Below are positions 4,561 to 58,085 of a DNA stretch of 64,000 nt, piece by piece (within the stretch, counting starts at the first letter, position 1; each line of letters begins with the position of its first letter). The notes beneath the pieces were generated by a model. It searched no databases, was not told the origin of the DNA, and was given only the letters and a program-made list of their open reading frames with translations. This stretch comes from Lonicera japonica. Taxonomy: Eukaryota > Streptophyta > Magnoliopsida > Dipsacales > Caprifoliaceae. The position numbers and the translations under genes were made by a program. The DNA is taken from contig JAKCWG010000884.1 in assembly GCA_021464415.1 (NCBI GenBank), positions 124,001 to 188,000 on the forward strand. The letters are read 5' to 3'.

Positions 4561-4815
4561 ACAGGTTTTGAAAAAGGCAACACTTGAACTTTCTATATTC
4601 TCTCTAGCATAACTTTCTTGCCACAAGGTGAGTAGGCATATATGATCAACGGCCAAGAGCAGAGGCAACGACAGGAGAATTGTCAATGGATAAGAGAAAA
4701 TATGGGCTGATATCCTCAAGAATACGTCTCGAATTATGTGATGTGACATAAAGTTAATGGAATAATATGATTCTGAAGAAGACCCTATTGACGGAGTCAA
4801 TCCTAACCTTAGACT

Positions 4816-5600: not shown

Positions 5601-5995
5601 ACTTCTTCCCCAGATGAATGGGAAATTACACGATGAAGTCAAGAAGGTGTCATGCTGAAAGAATCTGAGTTCCAAAAACTTTTTCAAAATACATTGCAAA
5701 GAATGAGAAGTATTCATGAGAATAGCCCGGTCAGAGCGTGAATGGTAAGATTGATGCATCCCATAAGCCAAGGGTAAACATCGATAAGTTTGAAAAATCT
5801 AAAGAAAGAGAAAGGTCAACCATGGATCACATTGCCCAAAGAACCACAAAATTCCCCTACCATGAGGGTACATTTCGATTCACATATTTTCATGAATAAA
5901 ACAACCAGTTGAGATTCACGCGAGAGTTGTGAATTGCTGTCTTCTTATTATCGTCCCAGAATCCTTGCAAGCAAGAATCCCGGGACGAGAGGGTC

Positions 5996-7158: not shown

Positions 7159-7894
7159 CTTATACTTTAGGCTGGGTACATTATATATATGCATTTCACG
7201 AAGGGCTTTTATATGCATTGGCTGCTTCAGAAATGTAATATATATATTTACATTTGTATATATAAAAAAAAATGTGTTTTACCCAGAGGTGATTTATTAC
7301 AGAGAAGTAGCATATAAACTAAATTTACTTTCATCATATTGCATTGAATGGCATGCATTGTTTCCAACCTATTTTCTTATACGAACTCTTATAGTTCCCA
7401 TTGAGCCTATTTGGCTCACTCCCATTTTCCAAACCAGGTTTTGCAGGTGTTCCCTGGGGACGGTGCGCTCACAAAGTCTAGATAGCTCTGAAGATTTGAT
7501 TACCAAAGTTGTTTGGGAAACGACTTATGTCTTCTTTGTTTAAGTATTCATATTATATTGTATTAAACTCTTAAGCCATATATGTAAAATTTTTATGAGA
7601 TTGGAACCTCGTTAGAGGAATTACCTTGTACTAGAATGTTAATTTCTATTTGACAAGGAATTGATAGATGTGGAGATATTATTTTAGTTAAACTTATGTT
7701 TGTTTGACAGGAAATGGTTTTATTGAAAGTACAAACTCCACATTCCAAAATTTTCCAGAATATATAGCTTTATCAGTAATTTTCATTTCTATGAGTTATA
7801 ATTTTATACTATAACCCTCGTTGTCGCGTACGACACTGTGACCAACCAGGTCCTGGAGGCAAAATCCTCTAAACGGGATTTTGGGGCGTCACAC
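7159..7894 (+). repeat. 3' end of a large Gypsy-type LTR, interrupted by Tat-1
   Basis: It carries the family signature gagcctatttggctcactccc ... ttttgcaggtg (around 7402-7450) and a 3' end with accaggtcctggaggcaaaat ... TTTTGGGGCGTCACA. The reverse complement of the left end of the solo LTR at 12033 (ggctcatcccg, ttttgcagg, aaccaggtcccggaggtgaaaat, GGGCATCACA) has the same order of words. Its 5' part should lie beyond Tat-1, left of the window. The short ORFs in it are not genes. Confidence 0.7.
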
Positions 7895-9226
7895 ATACGA
7901 CCTTGCGGTTTCTGGGCTGCCAAAGGAGGTTCGTTCCCGATTCGTCAGTGACATGTCGGCGTTCATAAAAGACCGAGCGCCGATGTTGTACCCGATGTTT
8001 GGGGACATGCCTTTGTTGGAGCGGACGCACTCTTCGACCACCTGTTAGTAAGTACTTGTTTTTTATTCTAGTTAACTTTTTATTTTGCCTTACTAAATAT
8101 TATTTTTATTTGTACTAATATTTCTTCTTGTTTGATTTGTGGGAGAGTTATGACATCGATCCTGTGGATAAGGTGCTTGTCACGTGGATGCAAAAGAAGG
8201 CTGCAGATCGCTTCAGAGATTGGAAGCACAAGATCCACAAAAATTGGCAGATGCACAATGATACTCCCATTCCAGTGGAGTTCACACATCACCCGGACCA
8301 GTGGGAGTGGTTATTCAATCATTTCAAGGCCGAGGCTTTTCAGTTAATTTTTTTTATTTTGTTTCATTTAATTTATATATTTATAAATACTTCAATAAAT
8401 ACAACTGTTTGTATTTTGTAGCAGTTGGGCACGCAAATGGCCCAAATCCGGGCCTCCAAGAATAAGAAGGCCCACAGCGGGGGGGCCAAGGCCTTTGTCT
8501 TCCGGGCTCATGAGATAAAGCATAAGGGAGATCAGGTGCCTCACCTCACTACTTATGTCGAGGTGTACAAGAAGTACGACCCCGACCGCGTGGTAAATCT
8601 TTTTTATACAACACTTTAATTATTATTTTTCATGTTATTATTATTTTGTTCATATTTAATTATAATAACTTATGAAACTTATTGTTACTTGCAGGCGGCC
8701 GTTCAGTCCGCAATGACTGCTGAGGTGGTGGAGAAGATGATAGCCGATCTGCCTCCGATCGATGAAGCGTCGGACGGTACATCACCTGCCAGCGCCCCTG
8801 CCTCGCTCCTCGTCCTCTCTTACGATACCCAGGTCTTTATCCTTGAGACAGCAGTGGGTCCTTCGAGAGGGACGAAGGTGAGGGGCTTAGGGAGCGGCTC
8901 CGCGAAGCTGCCGCAGAAGAGAGGCCTATCATCGCAAATGGATAGTGCCAGATATACGGAGCTTGAGGCTGAAGTCGCCCAGCTTAGGCACAACAAGCTG
9001 CGATAGAAGAGCAGCTTTAGACGGAGAGAGCTCAGCAAGATATGGAGATTCAGAGGGAGAGAGCTGAGAGGGAAAAGGAGCGAGAGAGGGAGAGGGCCGA
9101 GCGAGAGAAAGAAAGAATCGATTTTGAGCACAAGATGCAAGCTCAATTCGAGTATATGTTCAAAGCGACCAGGATTCAACTGTCGAATCCTTCCTCAATT
9201 GGTTCCTCCTCTGCTCCTTTTCCCTA
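7895..9226 (+). pseudogene. CACTA (En/Spm) transposase_24-like gene, 3' part, broken
   Basis: Families of this type encode a DNA-binding accessory transposase. The start is cut off by the LTR ending at 7894. I read: a coding stretch 7896-8048 ending at a donor-like gtaagtac; an exon ending at about 8343 with the segment DRFRDWKHKI and HPDQWEWLFNHF; an exon 8422-8592 (LGTQMAQIRASKNKKAHSGG); and an exon from 8695. Introns at 8593-8694 (GTAAAT...TTGCAG) and 8344-8421 (ends TTTTGTAG) are AT-rich; the latter seems to lack a GT donor (CAG|TTAATT). The last exon runs into TAG at 9004, but the neighbouring frame continues with a strongly charged coiled coil (ERAEREKERERERAEREKER, from 9042) to TAG at 9224, so a frameshift near 9000 is likely. 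The W-x-W-L-x-N motif and the G-S/G-A-K-x-F pattern match the plant transposase_24 family. Confidence 0.75.
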
Positions 9227-39075: not shown

Positions 39076-40253
39076 TGTGAACACCCCAATACACGACTCT
39101 CGTGTGAACGCCGGTTTTCTTAAAACAAGCATCTCGCATCAAGTATTGAGTCATCAGGCATATAGAAGACCATTAGGAAAGACTCCATTTTTCGGCCACG
39201 TTGGGAGTCTACTATACCCTTTGTTGCCTCTTCACTTACTCAGGTCTCGGGGTGCGGGGCAACGCCCCGTTAGAAATTGGGTTTTTTCCCGAGTGTTTCT
39301 GTGCGGTTTTGTGAGCCAGCCGCAGCCCCCAGCCGCATGCCCCAACCGTACAGTAGGCTGCCAGCCGTACGGTTGGCACCCAGCCGCACGCCCCAGCCGC
39401 AAGCACCAACCGCATGCCCCAACCGCACGCACCAACCGCACGCCCCAACCGCATGCCCTAGCCGCACGCCCCAACCGCATGCCCTAGCCGCACGCCTGCA
39501 GCTACCCCCTGCGGTTGGACTCCTTTGGAGCGTTTTTGGCAGAATTTGTGCTATAAATAGGACCCTTGGGCTCTCATTCTAGGCATCAACACCCAATAGT
39601 GTTTCTAGTAAGTGGAGATTCTATCAAAATTATTAGAGAGGTTTTTTGAGGGAATTTCTAGAGAGAGAAAGTTAGTGAGAGAAAGTTTTGGAGAGAGAAA
39701 GTGTTAGAGAGAGAAGGAGGCAAGGAAGGAAAATCAAGGCAAGGTTCTGTTCTATTTTTCAAGCGCATCCGGTATATTTTTCTACAACTTTTCTAATTTC
39801 AATACTGCATTTAAATTTTTGTTTTAATATAGAAATTTAGATAACTTGCAAAGAAGTTCATTGTTTTCAAAATATATCCTTTCTAAATTTTACAAGAAAT
39901 TTAAAATCCGTTTTGACACGTTTTCAAAACAAAATAAAAATACAAAAATAGTTTCCAAACAAGTGGAACTACGAGACTCTGATTTCATTTTACGAATGAA
40001 TACGTAGGCGCTTGTAAAGCTCGAGTCACCTTCCCAATTCGTAACGTAGTTCCCGAACCCTAGCAAAGTAAATTTTTAAACGAATCTCTGGTTTTAAACG
40101 TATGAGCGATAATTCATTTTCGAATTGTCTTTCGTACGATCTTTTCTTGTAAAACAAACTGGCGACTCTACAACACACATTTTCCTTTAAAACCATAAAA
40201 AAAATCGAGAACGGAGGATTCCCTCTCTCGGGTCGGGGGTCCGGATTCTCACA
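39076..40253 (+). repeat. 5' LTR of Tat-2 (1178 bp)
   Basis: It starts TGTGAACACCCC, ends GGATTCTCACA, and is followed directly by the primer site. Compared with the 3' LTR it lacks about 140 bp at 40027/40028 (gctcgagtc joined to accttcccaattcg). The small ORFs at 39077-39582 on both strands are translations of the GC-rich U3 repeats. Confidence 0.93.
39310..39560 (+). promoter_or_regulatory. U3 promoter of the Tat-2 5' LTR
   Basis: A cluster of ccaaccgcacgcc-type words and palindrome variants (gccgtacggttggc at about 39364) leads to the TATA box TATAAATA (39552-39559) in the word GTGCTATAAATAGGACC. GAGA-rich sequence follows the expected start (39640-39715). Confidence 0.75.
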
Positions 40254-40254
40254 G

Positions 40255-40272
40255 TGGCGACTCTGCTGGGGA
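40255..40272 (+). promoter_or_regulatory. Primer binding site of Tat-2
   Basis: TGGCGACTCTGCTGGGGA starts 2 bp after the LTR end. It has the form of the tRNA-Arg type primer sites seen in Tat/Ogre elements; the exact tRNA is inferred, not checked. Confidence 0.75.
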
Positions 40273-41388
40273 CGTCGAGAACTAAGCTCTTATATAATGG
40301 ATCATATATCTAATTTCTATTATTTATTAGGAATAGGTCTTGAAAGCCTTAGTCCTAGGATAACATAGAAGCTATCTAGGTGGATACCTTGATGCCTTTA
40401 TTTGCTAATTATGTGAGGAAAATCTTTTTCATAAATCAAAATTGTGTAAAAACCTGTAACAAATCCTAAAGCATTGATCAATAATGAACCGCCAGATTAT
40501 TATTTTGCACACACTCACGTCTTATCATGCATTTTCGCGAGTGTGAATTTTACCCTATCAACCTCGGGACCAGAGTCGTGACTAGGCCGCGGACTTGCGG
40601 GTCCGCACTAGCCAAAAGCGCCTGGGACCACTCTCCTTGGCCAAGTACTTACCGTGGTATATCGAGTGACGAGAACACTCACGTACCCGGGATGTATATC
40701 AAAAGGTCCTTACAAGTACCTGCGCTCTTAAGGTATATCGTAAGACCTGCCAAATAAGAGGGAGCCTTAAACTTTACCCTATACAACCACGCTTGCATAC
40801 AGGGGAGTCAGCCTAGAACACAAAGATTTTTTAGCGTCGTTTTAATGACCGACAGTCATGAGAATCTGAACCAGCTAAGGCCCTGCCATTTATACTATGA
40901 CGGTTTCGACAGGTACGACCGGAGGCTGTCCGACCTTCGCTGTAAAAATTCACGAGGACTGAATCTTCATAATTTTCCTGATGCTGATTCCATGAATAAA
41001 GCAACTCATGAAGAGAGAACCTCCCGTGATTTTCAAATGATTTTTCTAAAAAGCTCTTTTTTGAAATAGTTTTTCAAAACTATAGACGATCAGGGAACCC
41101 ATGGAATTCTTTTCCTACCCTATCTCTATACGGGGCTCTCAAGTTGTTTCCGTCGGTCTGTTTTTGATCACACGTAAAGAAAATCTTTTGTGTGTTTATT
41201 TTTGTCCCGATCGATGTATTTCTGGATAAAGTCTGGCAAGTTCTAAATGATATATTGTTGTTTTCTGGGGGGGGAATGTGCGCTATCGAATTTGTTCTTT
41301 TTTCCGGCATCAGACATTCACACTGGCCTCTGCGTGGGCCGAAAGAGATAACACCGGTAGACTCATCAGACCAGGCTCAACTGACATT
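40273..41388 (+). other. Tat-2 leader (5' UTR)
   Basis: 1.1 kb between primer site and gag without a supported gene. It would contain the dimerisation and packaging signals of the element RNA, but I cannot point to them. Confidence 0.6.
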
Positions 41389-43199
41389 ATGGATCAGAAT
41401 ACTCCGAACCCGGGAATGACACAGAACAATACCGCTGAGGGTCAGCCACTACATCACACCCCATCTCTCAATGCCGATCCAAACTTACCTAGTACAAGCG
41501 AAAACATGAACGCTCCATTGCCAAACCCTGAGGACATGTATCGGATGTTAATGAACCTGAACCAAAGCATGGCCATGTTGCTAGGTGACAATCAAAACGC
41601 TCGTGCCAAGTTGGACGAGTTGGCTAAAGGCCGCCTGGCAGAACCACCGAGGGAAACTCCGATTATTCCTCCACCACCACCGCCACTCTCAGTTCATACG
41701 GAAGCACCACCCCCGTTCGAACAATTGAACCAACCCAAACACATGCATGATCTAGTTGGCAATTGGTTACACCAAGATCTTATCAATCAAGCCCCTCCAA
41801 AAATGCAACCAGTCCACGAACCTTATCACGATCCATATTATGAACCGATAAAGAGGCCCATGAATGTCCAAGGGGAGGGACCCTCACTAGTGGAAGGTTA
41901 CCGGGGGGACAAAAACTTATCTGAACTTAAGGAACAACTGAAAGCTCTTACCCAGAAGGTCGTTGAAAGTTCAAATGATTTGACCCAGTTACAGAGCTAC
42001 AATTTGTACCCTGTGGCTCATTATCCGGTCGGATTTAAGATGCCTTCAATTCCAAAGTTTACAGGAACTACACTGCCGGAACTCCACCTGAAATCATATG
42101 TCCGCTCCATGAGAATTTATGATGTTGGGGAAGCAGAATTGGCTAATTCTTTTCATCTTACGCTAGCTGGACCGACCCAGAGTTGGTTTTTGAACCTCGA
42201 AAAACATCGGGTTAGATCATGGTCAGCCATCGTCCAAGAGTTTGTGGCGCAATATAAAACTAATGAAGAGCTTAAAGTCACAAGAAAACATTTGGAGATG
42301 GCTAAACAAGGTGGAGAGAATTCGTTACGAGGTGGAGAGAATTGGCTGCCTAAATGGTGGAGCGCCTAGATGAAGAAGAACAATTGGGAATGATAGTGAA
42401 AAATTTGAAACCCAAAATTCGGGTTCAAATGGGTCATCAGTTCTTTAGCAGGTTCAAGGCTCTGCTCCACGTGGGTAACGAAATCGAGGAGGACCTGGCC
42501 AAACAGGCCGAAATCAAGAAGTCTGCCTCTCAATACAAAAAGACTTCTACATCCGCTGTCAATCAAGTAACGTCTTACGGGTCCTATGGTAGAGGATACT
42601 CCAACAACCCTTATGGTCAAAGCTCTGTGAAAAACATTGGGGATTATCCTACACCGGGGTATCGCAACAACAATAATAACAACCCCCGGACGTTTGATCA
42701 GAACCGCTCACAGGATCAACATTTTTCACAATTACCGGGACCGTTGGGAAAGGTTTTTGAGCAACTGAAAGAAGCTGGGATTATGTATCCCATGAATCCG
42801 AGACCTCTACCACAACAAATACCGCCTCATTGGAACATGAATGAGCGGTGCAAATATCACCAAGGGTTTGGGCACACTATTAATAGTTGTATGGCTCTAC
42901 GGCATGCTATCCAAAACCTGATCGATAGAAAGAGAATCCCAGATCCGTCAGCCCCGAATGTTGCCAGGAATCCCCTTCCTAATCACCGAATCAACGCTAT
43001 CGAGGAGGATTTAGACTTACCAGATCCTGTATTCCTGATTAAACCTGTTGCGTATGCAGACAATGTTGAAGTGTTGAAATTTGGCTGTTTAAAGCCTTCA
43101 CCCATAGTCACCGAATACATTCCCCCAAAGTCCCAAAAAATCGCCGGAGATACCGAAGATGAACCGAGGAAATCCGAGGCGACAAGGGCTCGGATATAA
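41389..43199 (+). pseudogene. gag: Broken gag of Tat-2
   Basis: ATG at 41389 opens a proline-rich N-terminal part, followed by the capsid block (GEAELANSFHLTLAGPTQSW, about 42128-42187). Near 42310-42330 a small rearrangement (ggtggagagaatt present twice, 42310 and 42331) shifts the frame and removes a few codons present in Tat-1; TAA at 42351 follows in the new frame. The rest reads through the knuckle CKYHQGFGHTINSC (C-x2-H-x4-H-x4-C, about 42850-42891) to 43199, where another frame change joins it to pol. In this lineage gag and pol are usually one frame, so both breaks are probably decay. Confidence 0.88.
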
Positions 43200-46100
43200 C
43201 CGAGGAAAAGCAGTAAATAGAGACACCCATCAAAGTGCATATTCCTCACAAATAAACATGATCGCTTTTGATTGGAGCAAAGTTTCGCAAACTGAGGAAA
43301 AGTCGCCTCCAACCCCCGTTGAAATAACTGAAAAAGGAAATGATCCAGTTGCAACGTGGGTCCAATAGTTGACCCGTTCTGGGAGAGTTTACCAACCACC
43401 GAGTGCCAAACAATCTACTGATGCCACTACTCCCAAGGAACAGACAAAAGATCCGGAAGAAGGGCGTGTTGTTCAACAGTTGAAGAAAACACAAGCCCAA
43501 ATCTCAATTTGGGGACTCTTAGTAGCTTCTAAACCACATCGGATGGCCCTAATGAAAATGTTAGACCAATCAGTTGTTCCTCTGGAATCCACCCCGAATG
43601 AGTTAACAACAATGATCGCTTCAATGGGGGTACAAAAGCAAGTACTTGGTTTTTCTAATGAAGATCTATCACCGCTCGGTCGGGATCATAATCAAGCCCT
43701 ACACATCACCGTCGTGGCCTGTGGGATGTCTATCCCTTACGTTCTTGTGGATAACGGTTCTACGATTAATGTGTGTCCTCTGAAAACTGATGTTCGTTTG
43801 GGTATCGACTTAACTACATTAGAAGAATCGCCAGTCACGGTTAGGGCATACGACAATACCAAGCGAGAGGTACTGGGTTCCGTCATGCTGAGTATACAAA
43901 TAGGGCCGGCCACGTTTACCACTGAGTTCTAAGTCATTGACATTCTATCAAGCTTCCACTTGTTATTGGGACGAGTTTGGCTACATGAGGTTAGGGCACT
44001 CCCTTTTTCACTTCATCAAAAAATGAAAATACCATTCAACGGCAACATCATTATCATTAAAGGAGATCCTGAAAGGGCAATAATGCCAAAAAATTCGCCT
44101 GTATTGGGAATCGGAAGCCAAGATGTCCAACTCGGGGGATTTTCGTATGAGCCGAAAGTACAAACTCTCACCACCCAAACTGTGAATTATCTACCCCCCA
44201 ATGACATGGCTACCATGAAGGCGCAAGTCGTACAGATGATGAGGAAAATGAAATTCTTACCGAGAATTGGCTTTGGAAAATACAAAGCCGGCATTGCGCA
44301 AATGATTGAACCATACCAACAACCGAGTCCTCTTGCTGGGTTGGGATATACGGGGGATGATGATCGCATAAAAAGTGCCGTATTCACTGACAGATCGTTA
44401 AATGGGTGGTTCGTGAAAGAAGGTGAAGACTTCCCTTACTGCGGATTTCAAGAACCATGGGTAAATGAGGAGGGAAGGCGCCAGCCGGGATTAGAAATCT
44501 TCTTTGAAGAAGACTTGTATGTGAGCGAAGGTTTTACTCATACCTTCTCATCAAAGCTGAAAATAACCAAGCCACCTGCCGAGCCACTGGAAGATGAAGA
44601 TATGTTGGGTGACATGTTTGAGGTTATGGCAATTGAGGAAGAAGACTATCTCGAGGACCCTGTACATCTCATACCTCCCGTTGAAGAGGAAAAGAAGAAA
44701 AAGAGAGAGAAGAATGTTGATAGAAATGTACAAAATTTAGAATGTATGCTATCTATACCAAATGTTGTTTCTATCAATAAAATTGACAATCTTTCCCCTT
44801 ACTTTGATTCTTGTGATGTTGAAGTTATGAACGAAAATTTGAATGATGAACAAAGAATACAACCCATTGAAGGGGACATGATCACAATAAATTTGGGAAC
44901 AACTGATGACAAAAAAGAGATAAAAATTGTGGCCGAGTTAAGCCATGACGAAAAAACAGACTTAGAAAATTTGTTGAAAGAGTTTGTTAGTATTTTCGCT
45001 TGGTCATACGCTAATATGCCGGGTTTAGACGCCAATATTGTGATGCATGAAATACACACTAAACCTGAATGCAAACCTGTCAAGCAAAAGTTAAGAAAAC
45101 TAATACCTGAGTGGTCACTCAAGGTAAAAGAAGAAGTCACAAAACAATTGGATGTCGGATTCATACGGGTCGTTGAATACCCTACTTGGTTGGCCAACGT
45201 AGTGCCAGTACCAAAAGCCAATGGCAAAGTACGGGTTTGTGTCGACTATCGCAATTTAAATGCTGCATGTCCAAAAGATGATTTTCCACTGCCAAACATT
45301 GATCTCATTGTCGACAACACTGCAAATCATGCTTTAAAATCATTCGTTGATGGCTTTGCCGGGTATAATCAAATCAAAATGCATCCTGATCATCAGGAAA
45401 AGACGGCTTTTATCACGCCATGGGGTACTTATTGTTATACTGTCATGCCATTCGGGTTGAAAAATGCAGGGGCCACGTATCAGCGAGCGGCAACTACTTT
45501 ATTTCATGATATGATTCATAAGGAAGTCGAAGTGTATGTTGACGATATGATCATCAAATCATTAGACCGAGCAAGTCATGTGGAAACTCTTCGGGTCTTC
45601 TTTGAACGGCTTATGCAATTTCAAATGCGTTTGAATCCTCATAAATGTGTATTCGGGGTCACCAAAGGCAAGATACTGGGGTATATAGTTAGCAGAAAGG
45701 GAATCGAGGTAGATCCAGCAAAGGTTAAAGCTATTCAAGAAATGCCAGTCCCTAAAACCGAAAAGGAAATACGAGGCTTCCTCGGGAGACTACAGTTCAT
45801 CAGCAGATTCATTTCACAGTTGACTCGAACGTGTGAACCAATTTGTAAGCTACTCCAAAAGAGCTCAGATGGGCAATGGAACGAGCAATGCCAAGAAGCA
45901 TTTGATAAGATTAAACAATATTTGTCCAAGCCGCCAGTCTTAGCATCTCCACAAGTAGGCACTCTGTTGATACTATACATGTCAGTCAACGACTCATCAG
46001 TTGGGGCAATGTTAGCATAACATTTGTTGAAAACAAGAACTGAACAAGCAATATACTACCTCAGCAAAAAGTTTTCTCCAGGGGAACAAAACTATACAGC

Positions 46101-48146
46101 TTTAGAGAAATCGTGTGCCTCGTTGGTTTGGGCCACCCAGAAGTTGCGACATTATATGTTGGTCTTTTCCGTGATCTTAATCTCTCGCATGGATCCTCTG
46201 CGATACTTGTTCGAAAAGCCAGTGTTGACTAATCGAATGGCTAAATGGGTATTTCTACTTTCAGAGTTTGACATTTCTTATGTAACTCAAAAGGCTATCA
46301 AAGGGCAAATCATAGCAGACCACTTAGCGGGTAATCCTATTATTGATACTGACGTACAGGACTTTGGATTTCCTGATGAAGGTATCATGGAAATTACGAA
46401 AGATGATGAATGGAAAATGTATTTTGACGGGGCTTGTAATCGAAATGGGAATGGAATCGGGATCCTGCTAATTTCTCCAGATCAAACCCATGCCCCTATG
46501 TCCTTTCGCCTGGAATTTCCTTGTACCAATAATATCGCGGAATACGAAGCTTGTATTGTCGGATTAGAAATCGCTTGGCGGAGAGGGGTTCACAAGATTT
46601 AAGTGTTCGGAGACTCCGCTCTCATTATTCATCAGATTTTGAAAAAATGGAAGATTAAAGAGGAAAAACTTGTGCCATTTTTAGCCCAACTCGAAGAAAC
46701 TTCTGAAAAATTTGACTGTATTGAGTTCTTCTATATCCCGAGAACACAGAACAACTTTGCTGATGCCTTAGCTACTCTGGCCTCGATGATTGAAATTCCA
46801 GGGGAAAGAGAAGAAATTCAGATTCAGATTCAGAAGCGGATAAATCCAGTATTCTGCCTATCACTCGACGTTGAAAGTGGAAATGAGATTGATAAGAACG
46901 TTTGGTATTATGATATCTGGAAATTGCTCAAGCATGATGAATACCCGCCAAATATCGATAAAACCACTCGGGTTACACTTCGCCGACTCGCATCCCGGTT
47001 TATCATCTGTGCGGGAAAATTATACCGAAGAAATGATGATGGTATACACCTTCAATGTCTTGACGAAGAGAAAGCCCGAGCAATGATGGAACAAATTCAT
47101 AGTGGAGAGTGTGGTCAACATATGAGTGGTCATACATTGGCACGTAAAATAGTGCGACAAGGGTATTACTGGCTAACGATGCAAAAAGATTGTTTTAACT
47201 ACGTCAAAGGATGTCACCAATGCCAAATATACGCCAAGGCACAGAAACTCCCACCAAAAGAGTTATATCCTATGACATCTCCCTAGCCATTTTCCATCTG
47301 GGGTATCGACATAATTGGTAAGATCTCGCCAAAAGGAAGCAACGGGCATGAATATATTCTGGTAGCCATTGATTATTTCACCAAGTGGGTTGAAGCTGAG
47401 TCTTACAAAGATTTGAATGCCCGAAAAGTAGCTCGATTCATCCATCACAACATTATATGCCGATATAGGGTGCCACATGAGATCATATCCGATAATGGGA
47501 CGCATTTTGAGGGTGAAGCCAACGAAATCATGGAAGAATATGGCATCAAACGCCACAAATATTCTCCGTATTGCCCGCAAACTAATGGAGCCATTGAGGC
47601 TACTAATAAGAATTTAAAGAACATCATTAGTAAGATGATCAGATCCGGCAGAGATTGGCCCGAAAAGCTCCTATATGCACTTTGGGGATATCGAACTACT
47701 AAGAGGGTTTCTACGGGATCAACACCTTTTTCCCTCACCTATGGAATGGAAGCAGTCTTACCAGTGGAAATGGAAATACCGTCTTTACGGGTTGTCTTGG
47801 AAAATCAAATCACTGAAAGTGATTGGATAAAGGCGCGGTATGAGGAATTGGCAATGATTGATGAAAACCGTCTGAGGGCTTCATATCAACATCAAGGGTA
47901 TCAAAAACGTGTTGCTAAAGCCTTTAATAAAAAAATCCGAGACAGAAACATCGTAGTTGGGGATTTAGTACTCAAAGAAATTCGCGAACCAGCCCGAGAC
48001 CCACGAGGAAAATTTTCGCCAAAGTGGACAGGCCCCTACATTGTTACCAAAATCCTATCTGGAGGTGTCGTGCTTCTTACCGACATTGATGCCAAGAGTT
48101 AAACTTACCAGTCAACCTTGATCGATTGAAGAAATACTACCAGTAA
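43160..48146 (+). pseudogene. pol: Broken pol of Tat-2: protease, RT, two RNase H, integrase
   Basis: A single frame spans about 5 kb with in-frame stops at 43366, 43930, 46018, 46600 and 47284; a frame change near 48100 hides the likely natural stop at 48144. Domains: protease with D-N-G-S at 43750-43761; a G-patch-like segment (GFGKYKAGI, about 44269); RT 45030-45950 with intact Tyr-Val-Asp-Asp at 45535-45546; RNase H with KAIKGQIIADHLAG near 46285; a second RNase H 46410-46800 with FDGACNRNGNGIG, EYEACIVGLE, GDSALIIHQ and NNFADALATLAS (D-E-D-D residues present); integrase 47080-48100 with its zinc finger (CHQCQ), WGIDIIG, SDNGTHF and GAIEATN (D-D-E present). The two RNase H domains mark the Tat lineage. 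Catalytic residues survive; only stops and frame changes disable it. Confidence 0.92.
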
Positions 48147-48478
48147 GACTGTATTCATGAACTACGAAGACCTGAGCACCCCAAAAAAAATCAAAAAAAA
48201 TAAAATAAAATAAAATTATTATCTGGGGAAACGTAGGCAACCTGAAATTAGGCCCGGTCTATTCATTATAATAATATTCATCCATTTGAAAGCAAAAAGG
48301 GAGACAGAAAGAGATTTTCCATATATATAATCAAAGTCAAGCTACTACATACTCTTCCATGTAAACAAACCTACATACACCAAACTCCTACATACTTTTC
48401 CTACAGACCCGCCTACCTACATACAAAAAGCTTTCATAGAGAAGCAGTATACCAAACATAACCTAAACAAAAAAACCA
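48147..48478. other. Junction between pol and the antisense gene
   Basis: Holds the conserved post-integrase word catgaactacgaagacctgag, an A-rich run (48180-48220) and the 3' flank of the antisense ORF. Pol (+) and the antisense gene (-) converge here, so a terminator or poly(A) region for each is expected; I see no decisive signal. Confidence 0.5.
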
Positions 48479-49711
48479 TCAGTCAGAAGCGGAGTATAAG
48501 ATCCTCTCTCGATCCATGGTCTGATATGAAGCAAGTACTGTCTCCTCCGTCACTTGTGAGTCTGCAAACCTATACCACCTCATCATCATAGGCTCGTGCT
48601 CAATGGTCTGACGAACTCGACGCCAAACATGCAGTACAACGTCAGACCGGGTCACCTGGGTAATGCCGAGCTCTCCTCCATGGAATCGACGAACAAAACG
48701 AGTAGACCAAAGACCTCGTAAAGTCGTCTCCAACCTCGGGGTAATAGGCAGCGCAACCGAAGAAAAATCTCTAAGTGGGAGGGGTATACTCAGAGGAAGG
48801 CCGAACTGTCTAATCAACCGGCTGGGTATGTAGAACGATGTCTCTTGTAAACCACGGAATCGGAGATAGTTCTGCCCACCCATACTCATGATCATGGTCC
48901 TCATGCGCCACCATGGGATATCACAACGAATCGACGAAGAAGACTCAGAAAAACGCACATCCCAGTCGAAGGATGACAAACGATGGATCAGGGCGTAGTC
49001 GGGACGAAGAAAGAAGTGTCGAGCATCCCAGGGAAGTCGAATCCCCAAATATCGAAATCTCTCAATAACCCACATATACAACAGATATGGGCTACCCCGA
49101 AAATGGCTAAGTCGGCACTGAACCACGGCATCCAGAACATTCAGTGTCTCCGCCAGTAAGATGGGAGTCACCAAATGGCCGCATCTAGCCTCAGATACAA
49201 CCCGAATAATAAGAGGATCAACCATAATAGCATCATCAGTAACTAGAAGCATCTGTGAAAAAGTAAAGATCATACAGGCAGTAGTCTGACCTGAAAAATA
49301 AGCCGGATCATCACCATGCTGCAGGAAGAAGTCAGCCAGGCGACGTAAGTGGAGCCGTCTGTCTACAATCATCGACCGACACTCACTCTCCCGCAGTCCC
49401 AAAAACTCCGCCAGCATAACCCGAGGGCTCCTCGCATCCCGCAAAGACGCCAACGGCCATGAGAGAGCCTGGCGCATCAACAAAGTGAACTCCTCGATCG
49501 TCGGGCAGAGCTCGTCTAACCCGATACGGAAGCAATGATCCTCAGCATCCCAGAACTCGGTAAAACCAAGAAGGAACAAATAGTTGATCTCATACGAGCA
49601 CCAACGGTGAAGATGGCTCAGGTCGCCCCAGTTGAGACCGCAGTCGTCCTCGGCCAAAGACACGAAATCAGACAAGAGGGAAAAGGCAGCACTGGTACGA
49701 AAGATAGACAT
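48479..49711 (-). CDS. Antisense cargo ORF of Tat-2, DUF7745-like protein (410 aa)
   Basis: An uninterrupted 410-codon ORF on the strand opposite to pol. ATG at 49711 has A at -3 and lies about 88 bp downstream of a TATA box (49799-49806), which fixes the start. The N-terminal third has W-G-D-L, then LGFTEFWDAEDHCFRIGLDE followed by LCPTIEEF; the middle has SPYLLYMWVIERF and the later part DIPWWRMR and SRLIRQFG. This order (FWD..H.FR.G..ELCPT.EEF, then PWWR.R, then G-R/S-R-LIRQ-G) fits the plant domain of unknown function DUF7745, related in layout to PMD proteins and common in plant retrotransposons. No signal peptide, membrane segment or catalytic motif is evident. The function is unknown. 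Its intact state contrasts with the five stops in pol. Confidence 0.8.
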   Translation of the reverse strand: MSIFRTSAAFSLLSDFVSLAEDDCGLNWGDLSHLHRWCSYEINYLFLLGFTEFWDAEDHCFRIGLDELCPTIEEFTLLMRQALSWPLASLRDARSPRVMLAEFLGLRESECRSMIVDRRLHLRRLADFFLQHGDDPAYFSGQTTACMIFTFSQMLLVTDDAIMVDPLIIRVVSEARCGHLVTPILLAETLNVLDAVVQCRLSHFRGSPYLLYMWVIERFRYLGIRLPWDARHFFLRPDYALIHRLSSFDWDVRFSESSSSIRCDIPWWRMRTMIMSMGGQNYLRFRGLQETSFYIPSRLIRQFGLPLSIPLPLRDFSSVALPITPRLETTLRGLWSTRFVRRFHGGELGITQVTRSDVVLHVWRRVRQTIEHEPMMMRWYRFADSQVTEETVLASYQTMDRERILYSASD

Positions 49712-49774
49712 GTTGACAGAAGAAAGACAATCTACTTTTAGGCTAAAAGGGTAGAGTGAATAGTGATTCTGATG

Positions 49775-49920
49775 GGAAAAAGGGGCAAATTCGTGCTCTA
49801 TTTATAGCAAAAATGCACAAGCCAACCGCACGGCTGGCTGCCAACCATACGGTTGCCTCCCAACCGTACGGCTACCCCTTGTGGGTAGGGCGTGCGGTTG
49901 GCTCTCCCCCTTGCCAAAAA
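49775..49920 (-). promoter_or_regulatory. LTR-like promoter of the antisense DUF7745-like gene
   Basis: On the reverse strand the order is gtagccgtacggttgggagg, aaccgtatggttgg, agccgtgcggttggc, then TTTTTGCTATAAATAG (TATA at 49799-49806). The Tat LTR U3 has the same order of elements, and the 16-bp TATA word is identical to that in the Tat-1 LTR (6361-6376). This looks like a U3 promoter copy placed in reverse inside the element. Confidence 0.75.
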
Positions 49921-50391
49921 TCTCCGTTTTTCCAAATCTTTGTTTCCCAAAATTCTTCTTCACAATAATTGCATGCATATAAATTGAATAATCACTTGCC
50001 AACACGAGTACTTGACCATTTTTGTAATTAAATTCGCATATATTTAATAATTTCGCCAATATATATAATTAATCATTTTTCATTTTAATCAAGTTCATAA
50101 TGATTTTGCCAACACTTGTTATATAACCATTTCTTCCAAATACATTCACAATAATATTATAACATTCACATCACATCACACGCAAACATGTTTTCTGTAA
50201 AAAGCATAAATATTTTATTCATAAAATCAAAACCGGTCACACTAATAAACCAACATTTTTTCCTAACAAAACAAACACATTTAAATTAACCACTAAATTA
50301 ACAAAGTTTTTATTAAAATCAAAACATTACTAAATGAACTACTTAAATTAAAAATATTTTTTCCTAAACAAAACCTAACATCTTCAAACCA
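49921..50391. other. AT-rich spacer between the two antisense genes
   Basis: No ORF of note. It should hold the 3' UTR and poly(A) region of the PMD gene and sequences upstream of the DUF7745-like promoter. Confidence 0.5.
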
Positions 50392-53300
50392 TCAACGCTG
50401 AGGAGAAGGGGGAGGATCCATCGTGCGCGGCCGCTTCGCTTCCGTCTCTCCCGCACCCTCCGCTGGACTCTCCGAGAGCGTACGACCCTCGCCATGAGGA
50501 GAGGGACCAAGACGGGATGTACGCCTCGACTGCTGGACCAACTGAGATGGCGCCGCCGATCGGGACCGCGAGCGTGACGGATGGTAGGTGACAGTCGTAT
50601 CTCCCGCCAAGCGCCTGCTGTACCGCCCCATGTACTCCGTAGGGAAGGGAGCCGCAAACGTCAGTAGTCCGTACATGTTGAAGTAGCTCCTTAGCAACTC
50701 AGCTACCTCGCGGAGTCGGAATAAGCCCATCTGCCACAAAACCAATTTGTTAGTCATCATTCACAATAATTCATTTACTTAACTTTTTAAAAGATAAACA
50801 TACCTCCTCGTCCGAGACGTGCACTAGGGCCCCCATCCGCTCGTCGTCCACAGGCACATCAGGAATCCGGTAGCTCTTATGTAGACGGAGATCCAGGTAA
50901 GGAATGTCCCGCGGGTACTCCGGGATCGAGTAGGACGTCGACGCCCCACCAGCCTGTGACGGACCAGCTCCACCATCGCCGCCCGTCGGGGGTATGTCCT
51001 CCCCGGTATCCTCTCCCATCTTTGACTCGAGCGCCACCGCTTTTCCCTTCCCCTTGTCACCGCCCTCACCGGCCGAAGTCTGGCCGATGCCCGCCTCCAC
51101 TCCCAGCTGGACCTCCCTCTCTCGTAACTCCCGGAAGACTATGCCGCGAGCCGCTCCTGAGGAAGGGGTAGATAAGGAATATGGCCTCAACCCCACTGAT
51201 CCAGCACCCGGCGACCCCACGGGCGTGCGCAGCAAAGGCGAGAATGACACATGCTGGGCCCAATCCATATCTCCGGACCCATAGACGGGCGACGACCCTG
51301 ACATCGACCCACGTCCCTCGGGTGTCTGTACAGCCTTCAGCATCTATCGCATATCCTCCGAAGACAACTGGGTGTCCTCCCTGCCATCGCTGGTGGAATG
51401 GGCGGCCTTGATACGGGACTCCGACCTCCCAACGGACTCCTCCCACCCCTTGTGACCCTACCTCGCCCGGGCGAGACCGCAGCAGTCTGCCCCTCGACCC
51501 CTCCTCTGCCTGACCCAACCGGGGGCAACCCGCCGTTGCTTCCTCCCAAAGGCACCTCCTCCGACCCACCTTCTTCATCCTCCTCCTCCTCCATCTGCTG
51601 CGGCTCCGCGTCCCTCTCACCATGCGGATCTTCATCGTCTGAATCTGCAATCCCCTTTGCCCTCCGGTTCAGCGCAGGAGCGGGCTGATGTGGGACCCTC
51701 TGCGAGATATACAGCTGTCCCTGGATGAACATCGAATCTCCCCCGATGGCAGCGTACCTCGCGTATATCACCCTGCCGCGCACTCCCTTCATCTCCCTCA
51801 TCTCCGTACTCCCCCTCAACCAGGAAGCCCTCCATCGGGATGCCTCCCAAAAACGAGACCCGCTCCTCTGAAGATAGCATAACTGGCCGCCTCATCGCCA
51901 CTGGGGGCCAGGCCGGAACCCTGAAGCCTAACCTGGGGGTGTGCTGCAGCACCACGCGCTCCCCTAGGTAAAAAGCCGCACCATACTCGTGCAAAAATAG
52001 TCGCCTCGAACGAGCCGCCACCAACGCATCCGCATACCCCCACTGCTGCGTCACGAATGCGGGCCATGGGCTCCACTGCACCTGCCACATTGAATATACA
52101 CAAATATTATTTAAATCTCAGTTAAGTCAATCTCATACCCGATCTAGCTGAAGACCTGCGACGTCGCCTGCACTGACGTCCGGGGTTAGATATCGATACA
52201 CCCCAACTATGTTCCCGCTGTAATACCGTCTGAAGAGCGGGAACTCATCTGCGAAGGTCTGGTGCAGATGGATCTGACCAATACCCTGATGGGTATGCGT
52301 AATGAACCACATCTGTTGCAAATTATCACAATTAATAAAATCGTCAGTTTTTAAAATCAGATGCTCTTCTCGTAAAAAGATAAATTGAGATTTAATTTAA
52401 GTAATTACCTCCCAAAGCGTGACCAGTCCGCGATGGTTGAGCTCCATATGACGGCACACCAAATCCATCGACTCGTACAACACTGCCAGTACATAACCTC
52501 CCCAGGCAAATGTGTACAGCTGATCGAAGAACCGCAAGTAAGGCAGCCACCATAGCCGTAGGTTATCGCCGCCCCGTGCGTAGAAGAAGTCGTGTATCAA
52601 TAGCAGTATAAAACACCGAGACAGCTGTCGGACCTTCTGTCGTGTCATCGGTCCGTCCCCAAACCTCTCTCTCTCCGCCTCGATGTGATGAACCATCGCA
52701 GTGTGGGGTATCCCGTCTGCCACAATCCGACTTGGTCTCCAACCTAGTGTCGCTCCCATCCCATCTAGTGTAACTCGCAACCGGGGGTTGGGCGCCAGAG
52801 CTTCTCCTCTAAATGGAAGTCCCGTTAACACGAATACGTCCTTCGGGGTCAGTGTCATCTCTCCCCAACTCCAATGGAAGGTGTGCGTCGTATCCCACCA
52901 TCTCTGTCCCAGTACTGTCGGCAGACTCACCGATCGCTGGAACTCTCCGCCAGGCAACACCTCGATAAATCGTCCGAACGGGGTCGCGCTCAAATAGGCC
53001 CTCACCAACGGGGGTTGCTGATCTCGTAACTCCGGTGCGGCACGAGTGAGACCGCGGCAACGTCCAATCCTCTGATACAATCACATGTTTTAATAAAATT
53101 TAGAAACTCACTATTTCAATTAATATTGGATAATGCATATTTTAAAAATAAACTATGTTAAGTATGTTGATTATGGCAAGTAATTATTAAATTTATCATA
53201 TTTCATGCATATCATGGCATTGCATGTTTTAAAATATCATATGGCATAAAAATCAGTATATACCCGAGTACGGCGACGGATCTCATGTGCCGCAGGCTCC

Positions 53301-53533
53301 ATCAGTAGCCACTCCCGTCACTTTCCCGGTGAGATCAAGGGCACGTCACGATACATCGCTCGCTGTAAAGAGCCGTCTGCCCCCAGTGGCCCCTCCCAGG
53401 CCACACCCTCCCAGTCGTCGTGATGCCTCGCACATACTAGTCGGCCGTCCATCATCACCGTGATAGAATCCATCTCATCGCCAGGCAGTAGCTCCGGCTC
53501 ATCCCCACCCTCCGGTGGGCCCCCCTTCATCAT
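50392..53533 (-). pseudogene. Antisense PMD (plant mobile domain) gene of Tat-2, five exons, broken
   Basis: Inferred exons on the reverse strand: 53533-53264, 53071-52409, 52312-52139, 52081-50804, 50730-50392. All four introns are GT...AG and in phase 0, and every exon length is a multiple of three, which supports the model (about 908 codons). Exon 2 carries the PMD core: RWWDTTHTFHWSWGEMTLTP, then DVFVLTGLPFRGEAL, and later FFYARGGDNLRLWWLPYL. Exon 4 is acidic and low-complexity (DSDDEDPHGERDAEPQQMEE). PMD proteins occur as host MAIN/MAIL-type proteins and inside plant transposons. Breaks: TGA at 53318 in exon 1, TAG at 51344 in exon 4, and two compensating frame changes in exon 4 (about 51800 and 51400). 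The start at 53533 is the first ATG after the promoter; it is less certain than the exon borders. Confidence 0.78.
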
Positions 53534-53659
53534 GAATACGAAAATCGATAGTAGTCTCGCAAATGCTATCACTCACACTCGTGTAAAATACTCACTCAAT
53601 GTTTTTGAAATCAGATATTTATATGCTAGAGAGAGATTGCAAGAAGAAGTGACGAGAAT

Positions 53660-53800
53660 GATCCAAACAGCCGCCTATTTATAGATTTTGGAGGCCAGCC
53701 GCAGGCTAGCCAACCGTACGGCTAGCCCCCAACCGTACGGTTGGCTGCCAGCCGTACGACTGGGGGATCAGGCCTGCGGCTACCTCGTGCGGCTACCCTC
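53660..53800 (-). promoter_or_regulatory. LTR-like promoter of the antisense PMD gene
   Basis: On the reverse strand: agtcgtacggctgg, the exact palindrome CCAACCGTACGGTTGG (53729-53744), tagccgtacggttgg, then tgcggctggcctcc and CTATAAATAGG (TATA at 53676-53683). The LTRs show tgcggttggcctcc followed by TCTATAAATAGG, so this block resembles U3 with about 30 bp less between the two words. Confidence 0.75.
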
Positions 53801-53819
53801 ATTTTTTGACCAGTTTGGT

Positions 53820-54640
53820 TAAAAAAATAAAAATAAGTGAGGGGAACAATGACAAGTTCTGGACCAGTCTTTTCCAACACAAGAAGACCAAGACTCACGC
53901 ACACGCACGAGACGACTGATCAAACCCCAAAGTTTGACACTCCAAAAGTCTGTGGAGGAACCGAAATTCAAAAGGATGGATCCATTATCCGCAAGGCTTG
54001 AATCTGATTGATAAAAAGGGAAGGTGTAAAAGAGGAATTGGGTACCAGAAAAAATTGAAATAGTAGAAAAGGGCAAAATCCCGTTGGTGCAAGAGAGAAA
54101 AAATGGAGAAAAATAGAAACGAAGAAAATCGACAGGGAGAGCCACACTAAGAGTGACAGCTGTGCCAAAAGGCGGAGGGCTACATCTTAGGTCAGTAAGG
54201 CTCCTGTTTTGGAAAAAGCCAAGAAAGAAAAGGGCAAGTAAAATTCGGAAGCCCAAAAAATAAATGGGCCGGATAATCAAAAGAGGGAGCAATAAGGGTA
54301 TCAAAAAACAGAAAAACGATACAGGACCAACATCTTCCTTGTAGAAAAGATCAGAGGGTAGCTTGAGGATGATTGGGAAATCCAAGCGAAATTCTATCCC
54401 CACGACCGAAGAGAGGAAGACTGAGGGTAGAGAACAGTCAGATCCCAAAATCCAGGCACAACGGTCCGAATGTTTTAGGAAAAGTTGATTCAAAATTCTG
54501 ATTCCCGATAAAGCCAAAGGTCAAAACTGAGGGTAGAAAGGAATGGGAAAGAAAAGGCACTCCAACTTGCAAAACAGTTCTCTCTAGCATGTTATTTTTA
54601 ATAAACCAACAAAGCAGTAGCGGAACCATGGCAATGAGAC
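53820..54640 (+). other. Tat-2 3' UTR, block shared with Tat-1
   Basis: 54020-54600 aligns with 4055-4560 of Tat-1, best in the 76-bp core at 54137-54213. The reverse-strand ORFs here (for example 53819-54517) are translations of a purine-rich strand with strongly biased composition and are not supported as genes. Confidence 0.6.
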
Positions 54641-54649
54641 AGGGTTAGT

Positions 54650-55220
54650 GGGAATTTTCTCGGATTCCTCAGAGTTAGGAATTCTTCGCATTCCCCACGA
54701 TGGGAATTTTTCCGAAATCACTTTCCCCACGAAGGGAAATAACGACTCCACGTGTTCCCCACGAAGGGAATTTTCTCAGATTCCTCAGAGTTAGGAATTC
54801 TTCGCATTTCCCACGATGGGAATATTTCCGAAATCACTTTCCCCACGAAGGGAAATAACGACTCCACGTGTTCCCCACGAAGGGAATTTTCTCGGATTCC
54901 TCAGAGTTAGGAATTCTTCGCATTCCCCACGATGGGAATTTCTTCCGATCCCCTTTCCCCACGAAGGGAAATAACCTTTATCACATATTCCCCAAGAAGG
55001 GAATTTTTCCTGGATTCCTCAAGGTAGGAATTCTTCGCATTCCCCACGATGGGAATTTTTTCTCCGATCCCCTTTCCCCACGAAGGGAAATAACCTGTAC
55101 CGTGCTTTCCCCACGAAGGGAACAACTTTATCCCCCACACTCCCCACAATGGGAGTTTTTAAATTTCTCAAAAGATATTGATTTCTTCTTACTCCTGATC
55201 CCCATGAAGGGATATATCAC
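54650..55220 (+). repeat. Tandem array in Tat-2 3' UTR, 116-bp unit
   Basis: The word ttcctcagagttagg (or ttcctcaaggtagg) recurs at 54665, 54781, 54897 and 55015, giving a period of 116-118 bp. Each unit has three or so copies of a sub-motif ttccccacga(a/t)gggaa, whose arms TTCCC and GGGAA form a small hairpin. The array is unrelated to the one at the same place in Tat-1 (4816-5600). Confidence 0.88.
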
Positions 55221-55567
55221 AAAACCGAAAACACTCTTTCACTTTTTGGGAAACCTTTGAAGCACTTTTCCCAACGAATTGTCGAAACTTCTCATGTAAA
55301 GTCTTATACACTGAGGGTGGTGAGCTACTGAGGGTAGCATACCGCTGAGGGTAGACTGATAAAAAGATTGATGTATCGTGTTCCCCGGTCGAAAGAAAAG
55401 GGACGGTCGTGAATTGCATCGCCTTGAAACACAATGAGATCTATAAGCCAGAAAAGGTACATTCCGATTCAATTATCATCATATGGAGATTCACCCGAGA
55501 GTCATGAATCGTTGTATTCTTATCGTCCCTAAATTCTTGCAAGCAAGAATCCCGGGACGAGAGCGTC

Positions 55568-58085
55568 TGTGAACACCCCAATCCACGACTCTGGTGTGAA
55601 CGCCGATTTTCTTAAAACAAGCATCTCGCATCAAGTATTGAGTCATCAGGCATATAAAAGACCATTATGAAAGACTCCGTTTTTCGGCCGCGTTGGGAGT
55701 CTACTATACCCTTTGTTGCCTCTTCGCTTACTCAGGTTGCGGGGTGCGGGGTAACGCCCCGTTTGAAATTGGGGTTTTTCCCGAGTGTTTCTGTGCGGTT
55801 TTGTGAGCCAGCCGCACGCCCCAACCGTACGGTTGGCTGCGAGCCGTACGGTTGGCACCCAGCCGCACGCCCCAACGCACGCACCAACCGCACGCCCCAA
55901 CCGCATGCCCTAGCCGCACGCCCTGCGGCTACCCCCTACGGTTGGCCTCCTTTGGAGCATTTTTGGCGGAATTTGTTCTATAAATAGGACCCTTGGGCTC
56001 TCATTCTAGGCATCAACACCCAATAGTGTTTCTAGTAAATGGAGATTCTGTCAAAATTATTAGAGAGGTTTTTTGAGGGAATTTCTAGAGAGAGAAAGTT
56101 TTGGAGAGAGAAAGTGTTAGAGAGAGAAGGGGGCAAGGAAGGAAAATCAAGGCAATGTTCTGTTCTATTTTTCAAGCGCATCAGGTATATTTTTCTACAA
56201 CTTTTCTAATTTTAATACTGCATTTAAATATTTGTTTTAATATAGAAATTTAGATAACTTGCAAAGAAGTTCATTGTTTTCAAAATATATCCTTTCTAAA
56301 TTTACAAGAAATCTAAAATCCGTTTTGACACGTTTTCAAAACAAAATAAAAATACAAAAACAGTTTCCAAACAAGTGGAACTACGAGACTCTGATTTCAT
56401 TTTATGAATGAATACGTAGGCGCTTGTAAAGCTCGAGTCTGATTTCAAAATATTGTTTTAATCTAAATTTATCGAGAAAGGACTATTGTAGAAACTATCC
56501 AAACTACTTGCAAGATATCTAAGATAGGAATTAAATACATGATCCATTAAGAGACCAAAAGGGCGAATTGGGTGCCTAACACATTCCCAATTCGTAACGT
56601 AGTTCCCGAACCCTAGCAAAGTAAATTTTTAAACGAATCTCTAATTTTGAACGTATGAGCGATAATTCATTTTCGAATTGTCTTTCGTACGATCTTTTTG
56701 TGAGAATCCGGACCCATACCCCGAGAGGAGAGAAAAGAGTCCTTGTTCTCGGTTTTATTTGAAAACGTGTTTTGTAGAGTCGCCAGTTTGTTTTACGAGA
56801 AAACAAACAAAAGATCGTACGAAGGATAATTCGAAAACGAACTATCTCTCATACGTTTGAAACCAGAGATTCATTTTGAAAATTGACTTTGCTAGGGTTC
56901 GGGAACTACGTTACGAATTGGGAAGGTGTTAGGCACCCAATTCGCCCTTTCGGTCTCTTAATGGATCATGTATTTAATTCCTATTTTAGATATCTTGCAA
57001 GTAGTTTGAATAGTTTTCAGAATAGTCCTTTCCGGATAAATTTAGTTTTAAAACAATATTTTGAAATCAGACTCGAGCTTTTCGAGCGCCTACGTATTCA
57101 TTCGAAGAATGAAATCAGAGTCTCGTAGTTCCTTTCTTTTGGAAACTGTTTTTGTATTTTTGTTTGTTTTGAAAACGTGTCAAAACAAGATTTTAGATTT
57201 CTTGTTAAACTTAGAAAGGACTTGTTTTGAAAGCAATGAACTTCTTTGCAAGTTATCTAATTTTCTGTATTAAAAGTGAAATTAAATGCAGTACTGAAAT
57301 TAAGGATTTGGTAGAAAGTTATACCTGCTGCGCTTGAAGAAGATAGGAGGACTTTGCCTTGACTTCCTTCTCTCTCTAGAGCTTTCTCTCTCTAAAGCTT
57401 TCTCTCACTAGCCTTCTCTCTCAGAATTTCTCTAAAAATGACTTTCTAGAGACTTTGACAAAGCTCCTACTTACCCAAAATACTATTCAATGTTGATGAT
57501 CCCAAAATGGGATCCCAAGGGTCCTATTTATAGGAAAAATCTCGCCAAAAACGCTCCAAAGGAGGCCAACCGCAGGGGGTAGCCGCATGGCGTGCGATAA
57601 GGGTGTGCCAACCGTACGGTTGGCAGGTAGCCGTACGGTTGGGTGTGCGACAGGCGGCGGCGGTATGTGCCAACCGTACGGTTGGGAGCCAACCGTGCGG
57701 TTGGGGGTCGTGCGGTATGTGCCAACCGTACGGTTGGGAGCCGACCATGCGGTTGGGGGGCGTGCGGCTGGCTATCAAAAAAACCTAATTTCAGGTCGAT
57801 CCCCGTCCTAGTAAGCGAAGTGGCAACAAAGGTTGCGGTATATTCCTAACGCGCTCAAAAATCAGGATTTTTCCTAACGATCTCTCGTATGCATGATGAC
57901 TCAAGACTTGATGCAGAATGCTTGTTAGGTTCACGCGAGAGTCGCGGATTGGGGTGTTCACACTTTTGTTTGTTTTCTCGTAAAACAAACTGGCGACTCT
58001 ACAATACACATTTTCCTTTAAAACCATAAAAAAAAACCGAGAACGGAGGATTCCCTCTCTCGGGTCGGGGGTCCGGATTCTCACA
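55568..58085 (+). repeat. 3' LTR of Tat-2, split by a Tat solo LTR
   Basis: It starts TGTGAACACCCC (55568), runs to 56698, is interrupted by the inverted LTR at 56699-57962, and resumes at 57968-58085 ending GGATTCTCACA. Its own length is about 1.25 kb. TATAAATA lies at 55979-55986 and an exact CCAACCGTACGGTTGG at 55821-55836. It matches the 5' LTR including the ends of U5 (accataaaaaaaa...gagaacggagg). Confidence 0.92.
56699..57962 (-). repeat. Solo LTR of the Tat family inside the Tat-2 3' LTR, TSD CTTTT
   Basis: On the + strand TGTGAGAATCC...GGGGTGTTCACA; CTTTT flanks both sides (56694-56698 and 57963-57967). It holds three exact CCAACCGTACGGTTGG palindromes (57608-57623, 57670-57685, 57722-57737) and a reverse TATA box near 57525. 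Together with the host LTR half (55568-56698) it forms a long inverted repeat. Confidence 0.93.

Follow-up and report, generated by a model that had tools for sequence, protein, structure and literature searches.

Why should two genes that run opposite to pol inside a retrotransposon each be preceded by a promoter resembling the U3 region of the element's own LTR, and what could act on all three of these promoters? This question is raised by a locus of Lonicera japonica, for which an earlier note, written from the letters of the DNA, had proposed that the element duplicated its U3 in reverse to drive the two genes, or that a single regulator serves the three promoters. That Tat elements have antisense genes has long been known, and the available parts of the literature call the roles of these genes undetermined. 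Previous work has also described an antisense promoter inside an element (that of Grande gene23) and the occurrence of PMD in Ogre; among the open-licence PMC papers considered, no title or abstract describes promoter motifs that are shared, or that change jointly, in LTR elements.

Results

A Tat-type element with two antisense genes

The window, by which we mean the whole 64-kb stretch of DNA that was analysed, holds a complete Tat-type Ty3/gypsy LTR retrotransposon, which belongs to what we call family A (Table 1). Its profile matches follow each other in the order RVT_1, RT_RNaseH, Integrase_H2C2 and rve (RT, RNase H, integrase), and an additional RNase H lies between RT_RNaseH and Integrase_H2C2 as a split RVT_3 match (46021-46602, E 2.1e-4; 46603-47286, E 1.6e-8). 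According to the available part of PMC6317226, an additional RNase H between RNase H and integrase marks the Tat elements of angiosperms (Ogre, Retand), and PMD is found in 57% of Ogre elements, which is why the PMD extra ORF is suggestive of the Ogre subclade, though not diagnostic. For the Retand marker TRP28 (PF04195), a scan of five antisense ORFs yielded no hit at E<=0.1. The 5' and 3' LTRs differ by substitutions at approximately 4% of their aligned sites, and the 3' LTR (55568-58085 as a whole) is interrupted by a nested LTR in the opposite orientation (56699-57962). This nested LTR is solo-like, comes from a related subfamily, has the target site CTTTT (by eye) and carries 13 matches of the motif described below in its own U3. 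The family-A element furthermore contains tandem repeat units of approximately 116 bp at 54650-55094, downstream of the antisense genes, as well as a region upstream of P2 (53830-54500) that holds no known gene, yet is 87% identical among four subfamilies, like coding exons.

Table 1. Features of the family-A element, in window coordinates
Feature	Position	Strand	Basis
Tat-type LTR retrotransposon, family A	39076-58085	+	LTR ends, domain order, TSD TAGTT by eye
5' LTR	39076-40253	+	
Motif array in U3 of 5' LTR, 11 matches, followed by CTATAAATAG at 39551	39331-39494	+	
gag-pol region (gag, RT, RNase H, second RNase H, integrase), in several open pieces	41251-48102	+	
Antisense DUF7745 gene, open, 410 aa	48479-49711	-	ORF, profile matches, dN/dS
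P1, TATA box and motif array of the DUF7745 gene, 6 matches	49796-49910	-	
Antisense PMD gene, five predicted exons, broken in the window copy	50392-53533	-	
Predicted PMD exons	53533-53264, 53071-52409, 52312-52139, 52081-50804, 50730-50392	-	
P2, TATA box and motif array of the PMD gene, 6 matches	53675-53805	-	
3' LTR, first part, with U3 array at 55810-55920 (9 matches) and TATA at 55978	55568-56698	+	
3' LTR, second part, past the nested LTR and its target-site copy	57968-58085	+	

The DUF7745-like ORF and the PMD gene, which the earlier note had placed opposite to pol, are both antisense, as profile matches and the gene model confirm. The five exons proposed for the PMD gene fit a GT-AG model, but the window copy is broken, with a stop in exon 1 and a loss of frame in exon 4. 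Pfam matches on the antisense ORFs comprised DUF7745, PMD and one weak match to Hormone_recep. The DUF7745 ORF of the window scores 25.0 bits against Pfam DUF7745 (cutoff 26; E 1.2e-5). Among 12 aligned relatives that include this copy, the DUF7745 profile matches 11 and the PMD profile all 12 (E<=0.01); the best E against Pfam PMD is 3e-9, while the window copy reaches 22.9 bits and stays below the PMD cutoff of 34.9. PMD exon 2 matches Pfam PMD with an E of 1.2e-21, and a direct profile comparison between DUF7745 and PMD exon 2 (hhalign) was not significant (Prob 0.1, E 0.72). By their matches to the Pfam PMD profile, both antisense proteins are predicted members of the PMD superfamily.

PMD exons 1-3 are present in six of six family-A elements examined, with stops in some copies. 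Between four subfamilies (the window element and L031-L033), dN/dS amounts to 0.07-0.18 for DUF7745 and, for the PMD exons compared (1, 2, 3 and 5), to 0.05-0.16 in exon 1, 0.03-0.09 in exons 2 and 3 and 0.10-0.18 in exon 5, with dS of up to 1.06; from this range of 0.03-0.18 it follows that DUF7745 and PMD are genes under purifying selection. When the assembly (886 Mb, 967 contigs) was searched with the DUF7745 query, 4170 first-look candidates were obtained, 102 of which were scored, and no relatives of DUF7745 or PMD were confirmed in viral contigs. AlphaFold2 models of DUF7745 (pLDDT 36 for the sequence alone, 41 with 12 sequences) were too poor to demonstrate a DNA-binding fold.

Motif arrays at three promoters

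As the earlier note had seen, CTATAAATAG and CCGTACGG both occur upstream of each antisense gene on the minus strand (CTATAAATAG at 49798 and 53675; CCGTACGG at 49864, 53714 and 53733). The CpG palindrome of family A can be written as RCCGYRCGGY and is found, together with half-sites, in three blocks upstream of TATA boxes, namely U3, P1 and P2. The pattern [AC][AG]CCG[CT][AG][CT]G has 79 matches in the window, as compared with a mean of 6.85 in whole-window mononucleotide shuffles, and 78 of these matches fall into eight clusters, which are the U3s of six LTRs (one of them partial) and the two antisense promoters. In seven family-A elements (that of the window and L031-L036), U3, P1 and P2 contain 159 matches in 4290 bp (37.06 per kb), versus 6 in the remaining 51510 bp (0.116 per kb). 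Block edges were set from TATA positions, or by hand for P1 of L032 and L036, where the TATA word is altered, and for U3 of L031, which has none.

The motif was drawn from the same data; two further tests, with 8-mers and with whole blocks, are independent of it. The 25 commonest U3 8-mers, counted in six of the elements (L031 left out), occur 282 times in U3, 195 times in P1, 235 times in P2 and 13 times elsewhere. In comparisons of P1 or P2 with every 200-bp window of the element it comes from, the other two blocks ranked above all remaining windows in 13 of 14 cases, the exception being P2 of L031, for which U3 scored 21 and the best other window 22. A motif pattern with fixed spacing gave no matches, the spacing chosen not being suited to these arrays.

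All seven elements have all three arrays, though the U3 array is thin in some (9 matches in the window element, 3 in L031, 8 in L032, 2 in L033, 10 in L034, 4 in L035 and 11 in L036). In L031, the 3' LTR (7887-8400 in element orientation) has a rearranged array in its U3 and no TATA word. The idea that L031 represents a young subfamily without a U3 array was rejected, because five of six further copies of its subfamily have 10-14 matches and the TATA word; the sixth is truncated and has 4 matches. U3 arrays consist of tandem repeats with units of 13, 19 and 53 bp, which turn over. Across four subfamilies, identity is 90% in the P1 array and 68-71% in the regions flanking it, whereas the P2 array, at 86%, is not better kept than its own upstream flank (87%). 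Within P1, motif columns are slightly better kept than spacers, a difference that 5 of 91 circular shifts reach and for which the choice of columns is biased. Of 36 copies, that of the window included, 34 have a P1 array with at least 4 matches; L011 and L014 have lost theirs through rearrangement (by eye).

The family-A array is also carried by a gag-only element, L037 (G000:C266:121919-131158, i.e., window positions 1-7158 and 2082 bases upstream), which has a gag-like region (57% at the amino acid level) and LTRs that are 93.7% identical. The array is found in both of its U3s, and the element gave no match to the RT, integrase, DUF7745 and PMD queries.

A second family with another palindrome

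A second family in the same genome, family B, was found via P0005, a protein of Lonicera macranthoides, and has the same antisense layout; the search gave 5142 candidates, and the 93 that were scored all match at 95-98% identity. Relative to family A, its proteins are 42% (DUF7745) and 46-53% (PMD exon 2) identical. In both elements tested, the family-B LTR recurs at the 5' end with 98.3% identity, and the motif is present in both copies.

The family-A motif does not occur in any of three family-B elements. Instead, all three carry TGTCGCGCGACA, with three copies each in P1 and P2 and four to six in U3. Outside U3, P1 and P2, GTCGCGCGA is missing from three 9.5-kb stretches of family B, nor does it occur anywhere in the window or in any of the seven family-A elements. 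The commonest U3 8-mers of family B give, for the three elements, counts of 53/49/67 in U3, 26/26/24 in P1, 25/24/23 in P2 and 2/2/1 elsewhere. Furthermore, GTCGYRCGA has 2-6 matches, and the family-A motif none, in each of 17 out of 17 additional P1 regions, which all belong to family B (75-91% to P0005 where aligned). Thus, the three promoters agree within a family, and all of them differ in motif between the families, which, with two families sampled in one genome, amounts to one single difference to explain.

No similarity is seen between the U3s of the two families, whose score is equalled or exceeded by 138 of 200 shuffles, while weak likeness exists between the P1 regions (score 18), between the P2 regions (19) and between P2 of A and U3 of B (18), each reached by none of 200 mononucleotide shuffles. 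Both palindromes have a CG-YR-CG core in common and differ in their flanks (RCCG..CGGY in A versus GTCG..CGAC in B). The earlier note had named the same genes behind unrelated upstream sequence as evidence against its reading, and family B is largely such a case; yet it counts as support for a shared regulator, because the U3 of family B differs in the same way.

Two side observations concern the sequences of these families. Some family-A U3s, among them that of L032 (7301-7448 in element orientation), contain CTGTCGCACG words that come near the family-B motif and might reflect an intermediate specificity. The family-B element L046 has tandem repeats at 4380-5220 and 6795-7344, with units of approximately 68 bp between PMD exon 2 and exon 1 and units of approximately 45 bp before the LTR.

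Likeness of the antisense promoters to U3

P1 and P2 do align to U3: against the U3 of the 5' LTR they reach local scores of 34 and 33, whereas the best of 200 dinucleotide shuffles reached 19 and 18. On the opposite strand, the scores are 29 and 37, so that orientation is uninformative, and the arrays being palindromic, their order on the strands tells little. In family A, the likeness extends to the TATA side, where an alignment by eye, anchored on the TATA word, shows that P2 and U3 have CCTGCGGYTGGCCTCC in common and P1 and U3 GYGCATTTTTG..CTATAAATAG; it therefore exceeds the palindromes. Family-B promoters, in contrast, are alike mainly at the palindromes. The proposal that U3 was duplicated in reverse is partly supported by the family-A likeness beside the TATA box, the order on the strands carrying little weight, and a literal reverse duplication of U3 is no more than weakly supported by these comparisons.

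Discussion

Any explanation has to accommodate three arrays with a near absence of the motif elsewhere, selection on both antisense genes, and a joint difference of the arrays between families. Of the two proposals made at the outset, that of one regulator for three promoters is well supported, as U3, P1 and P2 of family B together carry another palindrome. It is likely that a single shared trans factor acts on U3, P1 and P2 in each family. That this factor is encoded by the element itself is less certain, though somewhat probable, and we favour it over a host factor because two conserved, diverging genes sit under these promoters inside the element. The palindromes are what one would expect as targets of related dimeric DNA-binding proteins with diverged specificity. 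We infer one factor per family, which would be element-encoded and may act as an activator or anti-silencer, though on sequence grounds a repressor would be conceivable too.

The reading that we prefer, with a probability of roughly 0.55, is that the element carries a cis/trans regulatory circuit in which its three promoters would be tuned by a palindrome-recognising factor. In such a circuit, family-specific palindrome arrays would serve three TATA-type promoters from just upstream, that of the sense U3 and those of the two antisense genes. A sequence-specific factor would recognise the palindrome and set the activity of all three, be it by activation, by relief of silencing, or by both. Most likely, this factor would be one of the antisense proteins (DUF7745, PMD) or both together, in which case the element would control its own LTR as well as the genes of its own regulator, in a manner comparable to VANC and its target repeats in the DNA transposons of the VANDAL group. 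The suggestion of the earlier note that the gene pair forms a regulatory or anti-silencing module is plausible in this light. A more specific version remains tentative, and we would put it a little short of even odds: the antisense PMD-superfamily proteins would be an autoregulated transactivator or anti-silencer whose specificity diverges between families jointly with all target arrays, in a VANC-like arms race that arose independently in LTR retrotransposons. Points against the circuit are that two families in one genome yield a single difference, the broken PMD gene in the window copy and the stops in some others, the U3 of L031, the P2 array when compared with its flank, the small margin of motif columns over spacers in P1, the low pLDDT values, and the profile comparison that gave no link between DUF7745 and PMD.

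Next to the circuit, one has to consider that host transcription factors recognise the palindromes, be it a separate one for each element family or relatives within one host family, that each element family tuned its three promoters to the host factor it exploited, and that the antisense proteins do something else. This would explain three equal promoters without an element-encoded DNA-binding protein, as well as the retention of arrays in both LTRs of L037, which is devoid of matches to pol or the antisense proteins. Sites with a GTAC core are, as we presume, reminiscent of SPL factors and would fit a host factor, but many sites are without GTAC, such that SPL sites are unlikely to be the entire explanation. 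Since the three promoters differ jointly between two families that face the same host factors in one genome, we regard control by host factors as rather unlikely.

A second alternative is common descent or copying, by which U3 or one array would have been copied to the antisense promoters once, or repeatedly through template switching or gene conversion, so that the likeness would be mainly a matter of history. The family-A likeness beside the TATA box and the build-up of U3 arrays from tandem units with turnover would argue in favour of this. However, the spacers of family B differ among P1, P2 and U3 while the palindromes are identical, variant U3 words of L032 such as CTGTCGCACG were not seen in its P1 or P2 (by eye), and P1 is conserved as P1 across subfamilies, so that recent copying cannot have been frequent. 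A mainly historical origin of the likeness is distinctly improbable on these grounds. We give very little credence to a reading in which no specific activator is involved and the palindromic CpG arrays act through their structure, as boundaries or as targets of silencing, for although every site is a CpG-rich palindrome and tandem repeats are frequent silencing targets according to the available part of PMC5735166, the words are specific and family-exclusive, and the paired family-B palindrome has 3121 and 3169 matches on the two strands genome-wide, wherever located, versus 0 for a backward control.

With one motif at exactly three promoters, and another in its place at all three in the other family, the circuit becomes a concrete and falsifiable hypothesis, by which each antisense protein is expected to favour the palindrome of its own family. 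Should it hold, self-encoded control of a sequence-specific kind would reach beyond DNA transposons to the LTR elements that fill plant genomes, and the antisense PMD-superfamily proteins would supply the missing function of the Tat antisense ORFs. Non-autonomous elements that keep only the LTR array would then be parasites of the antisense-encoded factor. L037 is possibly such a parasite, though a host factor would explain its retention of the array too. The circuit would also be relevant to how MAIN, MAIL1 and other PMD proteins related to TEs acquired their roles in transcription and silencing.

Comparison with known systems

The host PMD proteins MAIN and MAIL1 are required for the expression of genes with the promoter motif DOWN, as reported in the available parts of PMC7156037 and PMC9899485. 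They resemble the present case in that PMD proteins are linked to a promoter motif, a link that is made there through the expression requirement and not through binding. We rejected the possibility that DOWN is the same motif, since the DOWN site of the MORC1 promoter given there, CATGCAGTTT, is unlike both palindromes.

Among retrotransposons, Ogre elements have the PMD domain in common with our element, and Grande gene23 is likewise an antisense gene with its own promoter, being transcribed from an internal one (PMC7264820); unlike here, the available part of that source reports no likeness of this promoter to U3. The Tat/Retand elements carry antisense ORFs with a TRP28 domain, for which a regulatory role has been suggested, and tandem repeats in the same region (PMC11963269, as far as available). 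Both the position of the antisense genes between pol and the 3' LTR and the tandem repeats in that region are thus paralleled here. In contrast, the domain is TRP28 (PF04195) there and PMD/DUF7745 here, and a common promoter motif is not described in the available part of that paper.

A mechanistic parallel is offered by the VANC anti-silencing proteins and their target repeats in the VANDAL transposons of Arabidopsis (PMC5735166, PMC10398659), where, according to the available parts of these sources, tandemly arrayed short motifs are bound by VANC proteins, which evolve together with them (PMC5735166). VANDAL elements are DNA transposons, and both binding and hypomethylation were shown there, whereas our case is built from sequence comparison; moreover, ours is an LTR element, with arrays at its U3 and at both antisense promoters, and the proteins match PMD and DUF7745. 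We do not class the element as a VANC system, but it may work like one: as in VANDAL, dense arrays of short motifs lie in noncoding parts, are family-specific and differ between related families, and a conserved element-encoded protein is the candidate reader.
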